A DNA stretch of 61,287 nucleotides, taken from positions 1 through 61,287 of the forward strand of contig CAINNX010000151.1 of the NCBI GenBank assembly GCA_903851305.1, given 5' to 3'. The notes beneath the pieces are model-generated. The model saw only the letters and a list, made by a program, of their open reading frames with translations. It ran no database searches and was not told the origin of the DNA. Made by a program: the position numbers and the translations under genes. Shown one piece after another: positions 55,859-60,667 of this stretch; the stretch's first letter is position 1, and every line of letters starts with the position of its first letter. Origin of the DNA: an uncultured Hyphomicrobiales bacterium (lineage in GTDB: Bacteria > Pseudomonadota > Alphaproteobacteria > Rhizobiales > Beijerinckiaceae).

Positions 55859-57012
55859 GCGAAGCTGATCCCCTCGCTCGCCGCCCCGGTCCACCGATCC
55901 CTGTTTCCGTGCTGACGGGCTTTCTGGGTGCTGGAAAAACCACGCTGCTCAATCACCTGTTGCGTGATCGCTCCATGGCCGACACACTCGTGCTGATCAA
56001 TGAGTTTGGTGAGGTCGGGATTGATCACCTTTTGGTCGAGCGCGCCGAAGGCGACATGATACTCATGGCGTCAGGTTGCCTGTGCTGCACCATTCGCGGC
56101 GATCTCGTCTCGACTTTGGCAGACTTGCTGAAGCGACGCGACAATGGTCGCATCACCCCTTTCAAACGCGTGCTGATCGAAACTACAGGCCTCGCTGATC
56201 CTGCGCCCGTGCTGCACACGATCATGTATCACCCCTATCTGATGCTGCGCTATCGGCTGGAGGGCGTGATCACTTTGGTTGATGCGGTCAATGGTTCTGC
56301 CACGCTGGATGCACATGAAGAATCCGTCAAACAGGCAGCCGTTGCAGATCGTTTGGTGATTTCGAAAATCGATCTGCTGAAAGATGGTGGCGCCTCATTG
56401 GCGGCCTTGGAAACTCGCCTTAAAGCGCTTAATCCGGCAGCCCACATGCTGGATGCAGAGGATGCAACTCCTGCAAACCTGTTTGATACAGGGCTCTATG
56501 ATCCTTCAGGCAAAACACCTGATGTGGCACGCTGGCTGAATGCCGAGGCGGTTGAAAAGGCTGAACACAAGCAACACGAACACCATGGTCATCACCATCA
56601 TGATCACGCGCATGACGTGAATCGTCATGATTCACGCATCCGTGCGCATTGCTTGCGATCTGACAAGCCACTTGATCCGCGCGGCGTCGATCTGTTTTTG
56701 AACATGCTGCGTGAGTTTCACGGGCCCAATCTATTGCGTGTCAAAGGCATTGTAGCGCTGTCAGATGACATCACGCGCCCGCTTGTCGTTCATGGCGTGC
56801 AGCATGTCTTTCATCCGCCTGTGCGGCTGGACGCCTGGCCCGATAAGGATCATTCGACGCGCATTGTCTTCATTCTGAAAGATCTGCGTCCCGAATTTGT
56901 CGATAAGCTTTGGGCGGCTTTCGCCAATATTGCGCGCACAGATACGCCTGACCGTGCTGCACTGGAAAACAATCCACTTGTACCTTCGCACAAAGGCGGC
57001 CTGTTTTCTTAA
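55855..57012 (+). CDS. COG0523 (CobW/YjiA-like) metallochaperone GTPase
   Basis: This is a G3E-family GTPase of 385 residues. Walker A is TGFLGAGKTTLLNH, the metal motif is SGCLCCTIRGD (CxCC), G3 is ETTGLADP and G4-like text is VISKIDLL. A histidine-rich stretch (HHGHHHHDHAHD, about residue 243) suggests zinc or cobalt binding. The C-terminal CobW_C domain is present. The ATG overlaps the carboxypeptidase stop, so they are co-translated. Its distance from the cob genes and the His loop make a zinc-type role more likely than cobalamin synthesis. Its stop overlaps the convergent acyl-CoA synthetase. Confidence 0.9.
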   Translation: MSEADPLARRPGPPIPVSVLTGFLGAGKTTLLNHLLRDRSMADTLVLINEFGEVGIDHLLVERAEGDMILMASGCLCCTIRGDLVSTLADLLKRRDNGRITPFKRVLIETTGLADPAPVLHTIMYHPYLMLRYRLEGVITLVDAVNGSATLDAHEESVKQAAVADRLVISKIDLLKDGGASLAALETRLKALNPAAHMLDAEDATPANLFDTGLYDPSGKTPDVARWLNAEAVEKAEHKQHEHHGHHHHDHAHDVNRHDSRIRAHCLRSDKPLDPRGVDLFLNMLREFHGPNLLRVKGIVALSDDITRPLVVHGVQHVFHPPVRLDAWPDKDHSTRIVFILKDLRPEFVDKLWAAFANIARTDTPDRAALENNPLVPSHKGGLFS

Positions 57013-58661
57013 GTCTGATCACGCAGCAGACGACGAATGACTTTGCCGCTCGTGGTGAGCGGCAATTCACCCACAAAAGCCACTTCGCGCGGATATTCAT
57101 GCGCCGACAGGCGGGCGCGCACAAAGTCGCGTATGTCATCAGCCAGCTCAGGCGAGGGCGCAAAGCCGTCTTTGAGCACGACAAAAGCCTTCACGATTTC
57201 TGTGCGCAATGGATTGGGCTTGCCTACGGCTGCACCAATTTGCACCGCCGGATGGCGCAACAAACAATCTTCGATTTCACCTGGACCAATTCGATAGCCT
57301 GATGAGGTGATGACATCATCATCACGTCCGACAAAATGCACATAACCATCGACGTCTTGACGCGCGAGATCACCAGTTATCATCCAGTCGCCAATAAATT
57401 TGTCTCGTGTTGCATCTGGGCGTTTCCAATATTCAAGAAACATCACGGGATTGGGGCGCCGGACCGCCACTTGTCCCATCTCATCGATCTCGCATATCGT
57501 GCCATCATCTCGAATGACGGCCACCTCATGCCCCGGCACGGCCTTACCTATGGCACCCGCGCGCGAAACGCCTGCTGCATGACAAGAGGCGAGCACAAGA
57601 TTGCATTCTGTCTGTCCGTAAAATTCATTGATCGTCAGACCAAAAGCTTTGCGGCCCCATTCATACACTTCTGCGCCCAAGGATTCTCCGCCTGAAGCGA
57701 GTGTGCGTAGATTGAGTTTGTATTTTTTGCGCGGATCATCAATAGCGCGCAGCATGCGCAGAGCTGTTGGCGGGATGAAAGCATTGCGGATCCCGGCCTG
57801 ATCAATCAGAGCCAAAGCGGCATCAGGATCAAAACCTTCAAAGCGACGACAGACCACTGCAACACCAAGATATAACGATGGAAGAAGGACATTCAGCAAT
57901 CCACCAGCCCATGCCCAATCAGCTGGCGTCCACATGCGGTCACCCGATTGGGGCAAGAACTCATGTGGAAATTGCACACCTGGAATATGGCCGAGCAGCA
58001 CGCGGTGGCCATGCAACGCGCCTTTGGCGAGGCCAGTTGTCCCTGATGTATAGATCATCAAAGCTGGATCATCTGCTCCCGTATCGAGCGCTGCAAAATC
58101 AGGGCTTTCGACAGCCATGTCGGCACACAAATCGCGTGCGCTGCCATCAGCACCATCTTTTGACCAGATGAGGCGCAGATCGGGCAGCTTTTCAAACCCG
58201 ATCTCGCGCAATTTGCTCAGTCCACGCGCATCCGTCACCACAGCCGCCGCACCCGAATTGATGAGGCGATATTCGAGCGCATCTCGCCCAAACAAAGCTG
58301 CCAGCGGCAAGGCAATGGCACCGATTTTGTAAATCGCCAGATGTGCAATCAGGGTCTCAGGGGATTGTGGGAGCAGCAATGCCACGCGCTCACCCGCGCG
58401 TAGACCTTGGCGGGCAAGCGCATGCGCCAAGCGATTAGAGGCCTGGCGCAAATCTTCGTAACTGTGGATAACAAGACCAGACGGCGTCCATTCGATCAGC
58501 GCTGGACGATCAGGCTCACGCCGCGCCCACAGATCACAAATCGCTACGCCGATATTGAAACGTGCCGGGATGAGCCAGCGGAAATCCCGCCTGAGAGTCT
58601 CGTAATCGGCGGGCTGGCGCAACATGGGCGCGTGATCCTTCGGCTCAATAATACCAGACAT
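57009..58661 (-). CDS. Acyl-CoA synthetase (AMP-forming, medium-chain-like)
   Basis: This ANL-superfamily enzyme activates a carboxylate to its CoA thioester through an acyl-adenylate. In its 550 residues the P-loop-like A3 motif is MIYTSGTTGLAKGALHGH, followed by NEFYGQTECNL (A5), ITGDLARQDVDGYVHFVGR (A7/A8) and TTSGKVIRRLLRD with the catalytic lysine (A10). Similarity to the ACSM/acetyl-CoA synthetase-like branch suggests short- or medium-chain acids. ATG 58661 is chosen, with GGGGG upstream; the frame extends to 58730. Confidence 0.9.
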   Translation of the reverse strand: MSGIIEPKDHAPMLRQPADYETLRRDFRWLIPARFNIGVAICDLWARREPDRPALIEWTPSGLVIHSYEDLRQASNRLAHALARQGLRAGERVALLLPQSPETLIAHLAIYKIGAIALPLAALFGRDALEYRLINSGAAAVVTDARGLSKLREIGFEKLPDLRLIWSKDGADGSARDLCADMAVESPDFAALDTGADDPALMIYTSGTTGLAKGALHGHRVLLGHIPGVQFPHEFLPQSGDRMWTPADWAWAGGLLNVLLPSLYLGVAVVCRRFEGFDPDAALALIDQAGIRNAFIPPTALRMLRAIDDPRKKYKLNLRTLASGGESLGAEVYEWGRKAFGLTINEFYGQTECNLVLASCHAAGVSRAGAIGKAVPGHEVAVIRDDGTICEIDEMGQVAVRRPNPVMFLEYWKRPDATRDKFIGDWMITGDLARQDVDGYVHFVGRDDDVITSSGYRIGPGEIEDCLLRHPAVQIGAAVGKPNPLRTEIVKAFVVLKDGFAPSPELADDIRDFVRARLSAHEYPREVAFVGELPLTTSGKVIRRLLRDQT

Positions 58662-58802
58662 TACGGACCCCCTGGGGTGCACGCAAGCGGACCTGAGACA
58701 TAGGGGGACAAGAGGTTTCCGTGACGGCAATCTTTGTTGCGTCCAGAGAGATTCAAGCTAAGCTTGTCCCATTGCTGACGATTTATTTTTTGGAGTTTTC
58801 GA

Positions 58803-59519
58803 ATGAAGCCTGCGATCATTTTGGTCGGCGCTGAGAAGGGCGGTGTTGGCAAGACCACCATTTCCCGCGCCATGCTCGACTATCTGACAACCAAGTCGAT
58901 CAATGCCCGCGCCTTTGATACCGAATCCCCGCGCGGTGCTTTGCATCGGTTTCACCCGCACGAAACCTCCATCGTCGACATCACTGAAACGGCCGACCAG
59001 ATGAAGATTCTGGATACGCTGAATGATACGGCGGCCAAAGCGTCCGTCATTGATGTCCGCGCTGGGCAGATGACCGAGACGTTGAAAGTGCTGCGCGATG
59101 TCGGCTTTCTGGATGCCGTGAAAGACGGGCAGATCACCTTCGTCATTATTCACGTTCTGGGGCCATCGGTCGCCTCGTTGGGTGAAATCACCGATATCGC
59201 GCCCTTCGTGAAGGATGCACATTATTTCCTCGCCAAGAACCACATCAACGATACGACTTTTTTCGAATGGGATCCCAAGACCTACGCCTCATACTTTGGC
59301 GATGTTCAATGCGCGGGCGAGATCACCATCCCCAAGCTTGATGAAATGGCTTACGAGCAGGTCGAGTTGAATGGTGTGTCTTTCGCTGATTTTGTGTCCG
59401 GCAAGCAGGGATCATTCGTCTTGCGGGGCTATGTGCGCACGTGGCTGCGCAATGTTTGCGAGGAGCTCGACGCGATCGGGTTGCACACACTGATCGCGCC
59501 CGAGCTGCGCCGTCAGTGA
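58803..59519 (+). CDS. ParA/MinD-like P-loop ATPase (first of a tandem pair)
   Basis: This 238-residue SIMIBI-class protein has a deviant Walker A, VGAEKGGVGKTTISR, with signature Lys12 and Walker Lys17, then RAFDTESPRGALHRFHP (switch I region) and ASVIDVRAGQ (Walker B-like). It looks like single-domain ParA relatives often annotated as nucleotide-binding or mobilisation proteins, but no parB, conjugation or flagellar gene is near. ATG 58803 follows GGAG. Its stop overlaps the start of a paralogue (GTGA). The partner and cargo are unknown. Confidence 0.75.
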   Translation: MKPAIILVGAEKGGVGKTTISRAMLDYLTTKSINARAFDTESPRGALHRFHPHETSIVDITETADQMKILDTLNDTAAKASVIDVRAGQMTETLKVLRDVGFLDAVKDGQITFVIIHVLGPSVASLGEITDIAPFVKDAHYFLAKNHINDTTFFEWDPKTYASYFGDVQCAGEITIPKLDEMAYEQVELNGVSFADFVSGKQGSFVLRGYVRTWLRNVCEELDAIGLHTLIAPELRRQ

Positions 59520-60232
59520 GACAGCAAGCACCTGTCTGGGTGGTTTGCGCGCCGTTTCCCAAAAGCGGCGCGACCACTTTTACGCGTCTGTTGGTCGATT
59601 ATTACCTTTTCACCGGTCGACCTGTAACCTTGTTTGAAACCGATCTGCACAATCGTTCACTCAAAGCTCGCTTTCCTGACATCACGCAACTTGTTGATCT
59701 TGCCACCACGCCAGGGCAAATCGCCCTGTTTGACCAGCTGGTCCAAGATGGCCACGTCCCGCGCATTGTGGAAGTGAGTGCGCAAGCCCATCCGCTCTTT
59801 ATCTCACAGGCCCGCAACAACGGATTTTTTGAAGAGACCAAAAATCACGGGCTGGACCCATCCATCCTGTTCATCAGCAATGGCACACGAAAATCCATTG
59901 AAGCAGGGATGATGGTGCAGTCATTATGGCGGCAGGTTCCGGTGATGCCCGTTGTGAATGAAGGCTTTGTTCGGTTGGGCAGCAAACTCAACGATCATCT
60001 GGACTCGTTTCCAACGCGGCGTTCGTTTCAAGTGCCGCTGATGGAGCCGATGCTGCGCGACATTGCTGACAAACCGCGTTTCTCTTTTGCTGATTTCATG
60101 CGTGCTCCACCGGGAACAGACACAATGTCCCTCGTCTTACGTGCGGACTTGCGCCACTGGACCCAGCGCGTGTTCACGCAATTCCGCGCACACGAAATGC
60201 GCAGAGCGTTCGACATGTCAGAATTTATTTGA
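59516..60232 (+). CDS. Degenerate ParA-like paralogue (second of a tandem pair)
   Basis: This protein, also 238 residues from GTG 59516, aligns with its upstream neighbour: LFETDLHNRSLKARFPD against AFDTESPRGALHRFHP, LVDLATTPGQIALFDQL against IVDITETADQMKILDTL. Where the P-loop should be it has APFPKSGATTFTR: two residues shorter and with Ala in place of the Walker lysine; the Walker B aspartate is Glu (IVEVSAQ). It is probably unable to hydrolyse ATP. The start overlaps the first gene's stop, so the two are made together. The frame is open back to 59441, which is rejected. Confidence 0.7.
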   Translation: MRQQAPVWVVCAPFPKSGATTFTRLLVDYYLFTGRPVTLFETDLHNRSLKARFPDITQLVDLATTPGQIALFDQLVQDGHVPRIVEVSAQAHPLFISQARNNGFFEETKNHGLDPSILFISNGTRKSIEAGMMVQSLWRQVPVMPVVNEGFVRLGSKLNDHLDSFPTRRSFQVPLMEPMLRDIADKPRFSFADFMRAPPGTDTMSLVLRADLRHWTQRVFTQFRAHEMRRAFDMSEFI

Positions 60233-60237
60233 TGAGG

Positions 60238-60639
60238 TCAGAGGCTGAGGGCTGAACGCAATTCACGCAGCTGATCACGACGCAATTGCGCGATCGCACG
60301 TGCTTCATCCGTTCCGGCATCCTCAACATCTTCTTCTGCAGCCTTTAGCTGTGCATCGAGCGCAGCTGCATCAAGTTCGGCCAGCGGCAGAGCTTGTTCA
60401 GCAAGAATGGTGAGGCCTTTGCCCGAAACATCGGCGAAGCCACCGCGCACGAACATCTTGCTGGAGCGATCCAGCGTCTCGAAAATCTCGATCACGCCGG
60501 GGCGGATCGTCGACATCATTGGCGCATGGCCATCGAGGACAGTGAAGGCACCCTCTGATCCGGGCACGACAACCTGTGCGACCTCACCTGAGAAGATGAG
60601 ACGTTCGGGCGACACGAGCTCGAAATGAAAAGCGGCCAT
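60238..60639 (-). CDS. atpC: ATP synthase epsilon subunit
   Basis: This F1 central-stalk subunit has 133 residues: [40 protein letters not shown] and [18 protein letters not shown] are family text, and the C-terminal helical pair regulates the enzyme. ATG 60639 has GGAG about 9 nt upstream; earlier Met codons are too close to it. It is the last gene of the atp operon, 67 nt after atpD. It is convergent with the ParA-like pair, with only 5 nt between stops. Confidence 0.95.
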
Positions 60640-60667
60640 TACCATAATCTCCAACCAGGGCCTTCAG

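Follow-up and report, generated by a model that had tools for sequence, protein, structure and literature searches.

The window, by which we mean the whole 61,287-nt stretch of DNA analysed here, carries two adjacent genes, A and B, which encode paralogous proteins predicted to take ParA/MinD folds, and several bacterial families retain the A-B couple as a module. Protein A has an intact nucleotide site and protein B a degenerate one. The general feature of B is the absence of the signature lysine; the Walker lysine was lost later, in one clade and probably in a single event. The reading that we prefer, and hold at a little less than even confidence, is that the two genes form one chromosomal module within the ParA/MinD superfamily, with the MobD-type proteins of plasmids as distant relatives, and that B would be the degenerate dimer partner or regulator of A.

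Gene organization and genomic neighbourhood

Table 1. Position of the A-B pair, its motifs and its flanking genes in the window
Feature	Position	Strand	Description
Gene A	58803-59519	+	238 aa, ParA/MinD-fold ATPase (predicted); ATG start, GGAG 7 nt upstream
Deviant Walker A KGGVGKTT	58836-58859	+	A residues 12-19
Gene B	59516-60232	+	238-aa paralogue of A, degenerate nucleotide site, GTG start
Degenerate P-loop CAPFPKSGATT	59546-59578	+	B residues 11-21
GTGA overlap, A stop / B start	59516-59519	+	
AMP-binding enzyme gene	57009-58730	-	upstream flank of A-B pair
ATP synthase epsilon gene	60238-60654	-	downstream flank of B; beta subunit gene beyond, also on the minus strand

An earlier note on this DNA had described two plus-strand ORFs of equal length sharing a GTGA, and the ORF coordinates bear this out (Table 1). 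The ORF finder placed the start of B at another GTG, at 59441, but we preferred 59516 because it fits the aligned relatives L062-L064. The GTGA overlap is present in the window and yet does not hold as a general trait, since a 4-nt overlap of A and B was found in only four of the 45 named loci with both genes (L062, L063, L064 and L089); the other 41 have a gap of 10 to 145 nt by the inferred starts. The overlap is a local feature, unusual among relatives.

Ten neighbours of the pair in the window, which ends 1.1 kb after B, were scanned with Pfam: CobT, CobS, DnaJ, BolA, Peptidase_S11, CobW, AMP-binding, two ATP synthase subunits and DUF3108. The statement of the earlier note that no ParB, flagellar or conjugation gene lies nearby is correct for these ten, and no relaxase, MobC, cellulose or phage domain was found among them. 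An ATP synthase epsilon homologue follows B in convergent orientation within 650 nt in 16 of the 45 two-gene loci, and 15 of the 50 loci with A have a homologue of the window's AMP-binding gene upstream of A in divergent orientation. Because they are on the opposite strand or divergent, we read these genes as inherited position and not as partners; and with the same place beside the epsilon gene occupied in 16 of 45 loci, part of the A-B linkage may be plain inherited synteny. In our reading, the pair was inherited at one chromosomal site and has also moved, and no co-transcribed partner is universal.

The site between the AMP-binding and ATP synthase epsilon genes recurs in L062-L069, L089 and L105, and looks ancestral for the pair. 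In 15 loci a member of one ORF cluster, which is an aldo-keto reductase in L091, lies within 600 nt of the end of B. We considered a third partner gene shared by all lineages and rejected it: none was found in 20 of the 50 locus maps, among ten neighbours in five named loci (Pfam) or in six further stretches. As regards ParABS partition, there is no ParB among the ten window neighbours and no lineage-wide third gene in those 20 maps.

Paralogy, fold and family assignment

The paralogy of A and B, claimed earlier by eye, is supported both by BLASTP (22% identity over 233 alignment positions, E 8e-12, as a single comparison) and by profile-profile alignment (probability 99.5, E 4e-23, 230 columns, with profiles built from 44 sequences of A and 42 of B). 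The alignment is full-length, and the C-terminal part of B still aligns with that of A in the profile-profile comparison. The AlphaFold monomer models of A and B had a pLDDT of 84.8 and 94.1, respectively. In VIA-align, the top match of the A model was ParF 4e03_A (Z 15.9, rmsd 3.0, 191 aligned) with several others tied, and that of the B model was ParF 5u1g_B (Z 17.0, rmsd 2.9, 193 aligned); the MipZ structure was matched with Z 15.5 by the A model and 14.5 by the B model. In Foldseek and VIA-align many ParA, MipZ, FlhG, MinD and nitrogenase Fe protein rows were tied within Z 1-2, so the predicted fold places A and B in the ParA/MinD superfamily and in no nearer family.

Protein A stayed below every curated cut-off in Pfam and NCBIfam, the nearest being CbiA (20.5 vs 25.4 bits). 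MipZ shares its fold with A and B, but A is below the gathering cut-off of PF09140 (15.8 vs 20.7 bits). That cut-off is exceeded at two other sites of the genome; PF09140 also matches in all 14 control genomes and so marks the superfamily rather than MipZ. At E up to 1, B matched nothing in Pfam, NCBIfam, PHROGs or PADLOC. The earlier note had put the pair forward as its best candidate for an undescribed system, and no curated family of these four collections covers B; when the 42 sequences of the B alignment were scanned with Pfam, four families came up, each for a single sequence at E 0.05-0.1. We found no description of the A-B pair in the titles and abstract openings of the open-access literature, where gene names that are ordinary words (para, mind) blunted the searching.

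The nucleotide sites of A and B

The ParA/MinD superfamily motif KGGxGK[TS], which holds the signature and Walker lysines, is present in A and absent from B. A deviant Walker motif with a signature lysine is described in the available part of PMC9178275. The EKGGVGKTT of A, which the earlier note had read as a full deviant Walker A, is kept across relatives: K12 to T19 are invariant in the 44-row A alignment, and all 80 distinct sequences scored as A, among them two phage relatives and one plasmid relative, have KGGVGK[TS]. Motif counts refer to distinct sequences in which 180 aa or more were matched.

In B, the PKSGATT with Ala at the Walker-lysine position was confirmed in the sequence. The P-loop of the window B has Phe in place of the signature Lys and Ala in place of the Walker Lys, and it retains Lys16, Gly18 and Thr20. 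The loop had also been described as two residues shorter than that of A, which was mistaken, as GAEKGGVGKTT and CAPFPKSGATT align gap-free; a shortened P-loop in B was thus ruled out. The replacement of the Walker B Asp by Glu, also reported before, is true of the window but belongs to one subclade of B (7/79): Glu was found in seven of the 44 B sequences without the Walker lysine and in none of the 35 with it, and Asp in 72 of the 79 overall.

The signature lysine was found in 0 of 79 distinct B sequences. The Walker lysine is replaced in 44 of the 79 and kept in 35; the earlier note had said that homologues keeping it would count against its claim. The keepers comprise a Bradyrhizobium group, identified through named Bradyrhizobium loci within it, members of three more families (f21, f23 and f29) and strain L094; the motif ARNGKT is found in some B that retain the lysine. 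The lysine-less B form one clade with support 100 in a tree thinned at 90% identity (37 rows, with the window B twice), a point in favour of the Walker lysine having been lost only once.

Gly18 and Ser/Thr20 of the B P-loop are kept in 79 of 79 sequences, and Lys or Arg stands at position 16 in all 44 B without the Walker lysine. Residues 16 and 20 speak for an alternative, improbable in our view, that B is a nucleotide-binding switch of its own, with Lys/Arg16 replacing the lost lysine and with A and B acting in series. The precedent is BcsQ, like B a ParA/MinD relative with a decayed P-loop, which is listed as RGGVGTT, with T replacing the catalytic lysine, in the accessible part of PMC9178275; according to an excerpt of PMC11470070, it forms an ATP-bound sandwich dimer and works in an essential complex. 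A lost lysine therefore need not mean lost binding, and B could still bind nucleotide and act on its own. Arg16, however, occurs also in 15 of the 35 B that retain the Walker lysine, so that residue 16 may be ancestral and not compensatory, and the Glu at the Walker B position in the window's subclade also counts against such a switch. BcsQ pairs with BcsR and has no intact paralogue as partner, unlike the proposed A-B, and the BcsQ model TIGR03371 gave 13.5 bits for A (cut-off 157.85) and no match for B.

Conservation and co-occurrence of the pair

A pattern scan of genome contigs found 50 named loci with A, in Beijerinckiaceae, Methylocystis, Methylosinus, Rhodoblastus, Bradyrhizobium and others, and in 45 of the 50 B is adjacent, downstream and on the same strand. 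These loci were found through the A search, which a B without A in the same genomes would escape; two further surveys, of 61 and 347 genomes, were searched with B itself as well as A. Among the 61 genomes (own and relatives), the independent A and B searches matched the same 17. Among 347 genomes sampled from the order, which we take to be Hyphomicrobiales, the profile searches found 31 with A, 34 with B and 30 with both. These 30 genomes, together with the 45 loci in which B adjoins A, show the co-occurrence that the earlier note had said would support its claim; a co-occurrence p value that ignores relatedness was set aside. Short or weak A matches (ten genomes, E 1e-6 or worse), weak or short B matches (G081, G344, G388 and G393) and places where one profile matched the other gene were dropped before the count of the 347, and some counted genes are contig-edge fragments (A in G367, B in G301). 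In 387 genomes of the class, apart from G000 and G080, which the counts above include, only weak A or B matches were found, with E 4e-11 or worse.

The couple is not without exceptions, and these weigh against the reading that we prefer. The 347 genomes include one with A only (G096) and four with B only (G111, G170, G236 and G326, all of one genus), so that B does occur alone, which the earlier note had set against its own claim. Locus L070 stops shortly past A, and another contig of the same genome has a B at its start. A and B of G058 are on different contigs, well inside each; linkage is therefore not obligatory. In the Methylocystis-type loci L076-L078, A is open and no B was found in the genomes, whose completeness is not given; A is therefore able to persist without B. 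In L110, A is truncated and a stump of B remains. This small Methylocystis group (L076-L078 and L110) has lost B and is a natural deletion series.

Two side observations concern copy number and solitary B genes. Some large Bradyrhizobium-group genomes (G067, G069 and G080) have two A-B pairs each. The B-type genes without any A in the four genomes of one genus (L250, L251, G236 and G326) include two that were read, L152 and L156, and both retain GKT.

Selection and phylogeny

Both genes are under purifying selection. The dN/dS of B was 0.04-0.23 in 16 of 17 pairs (one had saturated dS, and the pairs share members), and that of A was 0-0.13 in the same pair set. Being far below 1, the values for B ruled out a decaying pseudogene.

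The dN/dS of B was above that of A in 14 of the 16 pairs, equal in one and lower in one, which counts to some degree against our preferred reading. Effectors often diverge fast, and the faster divergence of B is in favour of a reading that we consider rather unlikely, in which B is a separate adaptor or effector with the role of ParB, MinE or McdB, built on a reused ParA fold, and would recognise the cargo or stimulate A while forming no sandwich dimer. No other lineage-wide partner gene fills the effector slot, and B is sometimes alone (four genomes) or unlinked (G058), both of which would suit an effector. A pure adaptor, however, would not need the P-loop Gly and Ser/Thr that all 79 B sequences retain, and the alignment of the C-terminal part of B with that of A also goes against it.

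B was placed outside A in the tree (98/100), a value to be weighed against the AU tests. In these tests, B and the host A as one clade were not rejected (p 0.545), and B and p2, the second gene of a cyanobacterial plasmid tandem, as one clade were disfavoured but not rejected (p 0.066).

Plasmid relatives

Among known systems, the MobD, TraL and StbB proteins are small, deviant-Walker and ParA-like, as A is, and hhalign of A with a cyanobacterial MobD-like protein gave 96.3% (E 2e-9, 211 columns). On the side of difference, A had 17.3 bits with the TraL model against a cut-off of 360, and the relaxase or mobilisation region is absent from the ten scanned window neighbours. The stb operon has one such ATPase gene in the available part of PMC3098194, whereas A-B has two in tandem; the same part of that source divides StbB-like proteins into one group with KGGxxK and a second with SGxxGK in its place.

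Through tblastn of A on plasmids we found 27 records; the 20 listed were all cyanobacterial, at 18-26% identity, and some were annotated MobD-like. B had no match on plasmids at E 0.01. On the Chroococcidiopsis plasmid pA, a gene with DKGGVGKST is immediately followed by a paralogue with GDARVGKST, and at least 33 plasmid records have both genes 3-511 nt apart, among the matches listed (the best 60 of 75 and the best 60 of 303). In the eight pairs read, the first gene (p1) has KGGVGKS (8/8), the second (p2) has D[AS]RVGKS with the Walker lysine kept (8/8), and a DUF6753 gene comes next in 7/8. This tandem resembles A-B in that a KGG gene comes first and a paralogue lacking the signature lysine second (D[AS]RVGKS may be compared with the ARNGKT of some B). 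It is unlike A-B in being plasmid-borne, in the DUF6753 gene after p2 and in the Walker lysine of every p2 read. In the tree, p2 nests inside the p1 group, apart from B, and at an AU p of 0.066 separate origins of p2 and B are favoured.

The earlier note had also named a known plasmid or transfer module as a possible identity that would count against its claim. A look-alike tandem does exist on cyanobacterial plasmids, some of them typed conjugative, and this refines the claim without being fatal to it. The same is true of the B genes with a Walker lysine and of those that occur alone: each objection applies in part, so the claim of a pair is refined and not overturned.

The arrangement of a MobD-like ATPase, a paralogue without the signature lysine and DUF6753 (7/8) in L249 and L256-L262 is often near a response regulator gene. 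MobD-like genes were also found on plasmids of Methylocystis and Methylorubrum. One of these, L264 on plasmid p2METDI of Methylorubrum extorquens DM4, is a lone P-loop NTPase (MobD-like) near genes for a SAVED-domain protein and a DncV-like nucleotidyltransferase, and its surroundings look like a CBASS defence island.

Phage relatives of A

A-type genes were found in at least 35 viral contigs, with 35-53% identity over most of the length (61% for one short piece), and two Bradyrhizobium phage records each have one. All 36 phage A-type proteins of at least 190 aa have KGGVGKT. These homologues are like the host A in sequence and motif but, unlike the host pair, they are single genes: each viral stretch that was read shows one A-type gene, and in none was B found. 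The search for B in viral contigs used one peptide pattern, of whose 67 matches none was confirmed, and is a weak negative.

The phage A-type genes belong to late modules. Of the 36, 17 are within about 3 kb of a terminase large subunit gene, as judged from profile matches of representatives, clustering and the annotation of one record; of the others, some are near head, tail or lysis genes and some have neighbours without a match. The variable position within late modules suggests that the phage A-type gene is an accessory gene of late operons. In L187-L220, L112 and L113, lone A-type genes that are apparently unannotated often lie near the terminase large subunit and varied portal genes.

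These phage genes, and the MobD-like genes on Methylocystis and Methylorubrum plasmids, would give targets to a chromosomal interference factor, that is, a pair poisoning phage or plasmid ATPases through mixed dimers, and the orphan ParA ParI, which destabilises IncP-7 plasmids according to the available part of PMC9178275, is a precedent. We nevertheless judge this role very unlikely, since neither A nor B matched a PADLOC defence family at E up to 1, and inheritance across several families with a dN/dS of 0-0.13 for A is unlike an arms race. Still harder to credit is the view that the pair is left over from a phage or plasmid, domesticated but with no function in the host. The host A does lie among phage A sequences in trees, where node support is mixed and sometimes weak; against a remnant stand the purifying selection on both genes, their presence across several families and the ten window neighbours that were scanned, none of which has a phage domain.

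Proposed mechanism

Subunits of the ParA/MinD superfamily that have bound ATP pair as a sandwich, and each signature lysine reaches the ATP of the partner. In the reading that we prefer, A would be an ATP-dependent dimerising switch, and B a catalytically degenerate paralogue, most likely the dimer partner or regulator of A. ATP-bound A would pair either with itself, and hydrolyse, or with B. As B is without the signature lysine, the own site of A would be left incomplete in an A-B dimer. Where B keeps the Walker lysine, one composite site would be possible, with the signature lysine of A over the ATP of B. In the clade without that lysine, to which the window B belongs, no normal site would remain, and B may cap A or keep it ATP-bound for long. 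The ratio of A to B would then set the residence time of A on a surface or cargo.

From the signature lysine that B never has, and the Walker lysine that the window B lacks, we infer that the two proteins form a mixed dimer, where B would slow or cap the cycle of A. The data show sequence, predicted fold, paralogy, motifs, conservation and selection; the heterodimer, the capping and a positioning role are proposed from them. It is also conceivable, though we regard it as doubtful, that A and B form an asymmetric motor, an obligate heterodimer with at first one composite ATP site made of the signature lysine of A and the P-loop of B, and later none in one clade, that B thereby became a built-in timer or cap, and that the cyanobacterial tandem arose separately. 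If this were true, asymmetric pairing would be a recurring way to tune the ParA/MinD family.

Biological meaning

ATPases of the ParA/MinD superfamily position chromosomes, plasmids, division sites and organelles, and they are usually pictured as symmetric homodimers. The A-B couples offer a natural series, in which the Walker lysine is kept or lost and the signature lysine is always absent, for probing the role of each lysine. The pair is present in the cultured genera Methylocystis, Rhodoblastus and Bradyrhizobium, and the B-only genomes of one genus may show what B does alone. An unannotated host module is in this way linked to an unannotated phage late gene and to MobD-like pairs of plasmids.
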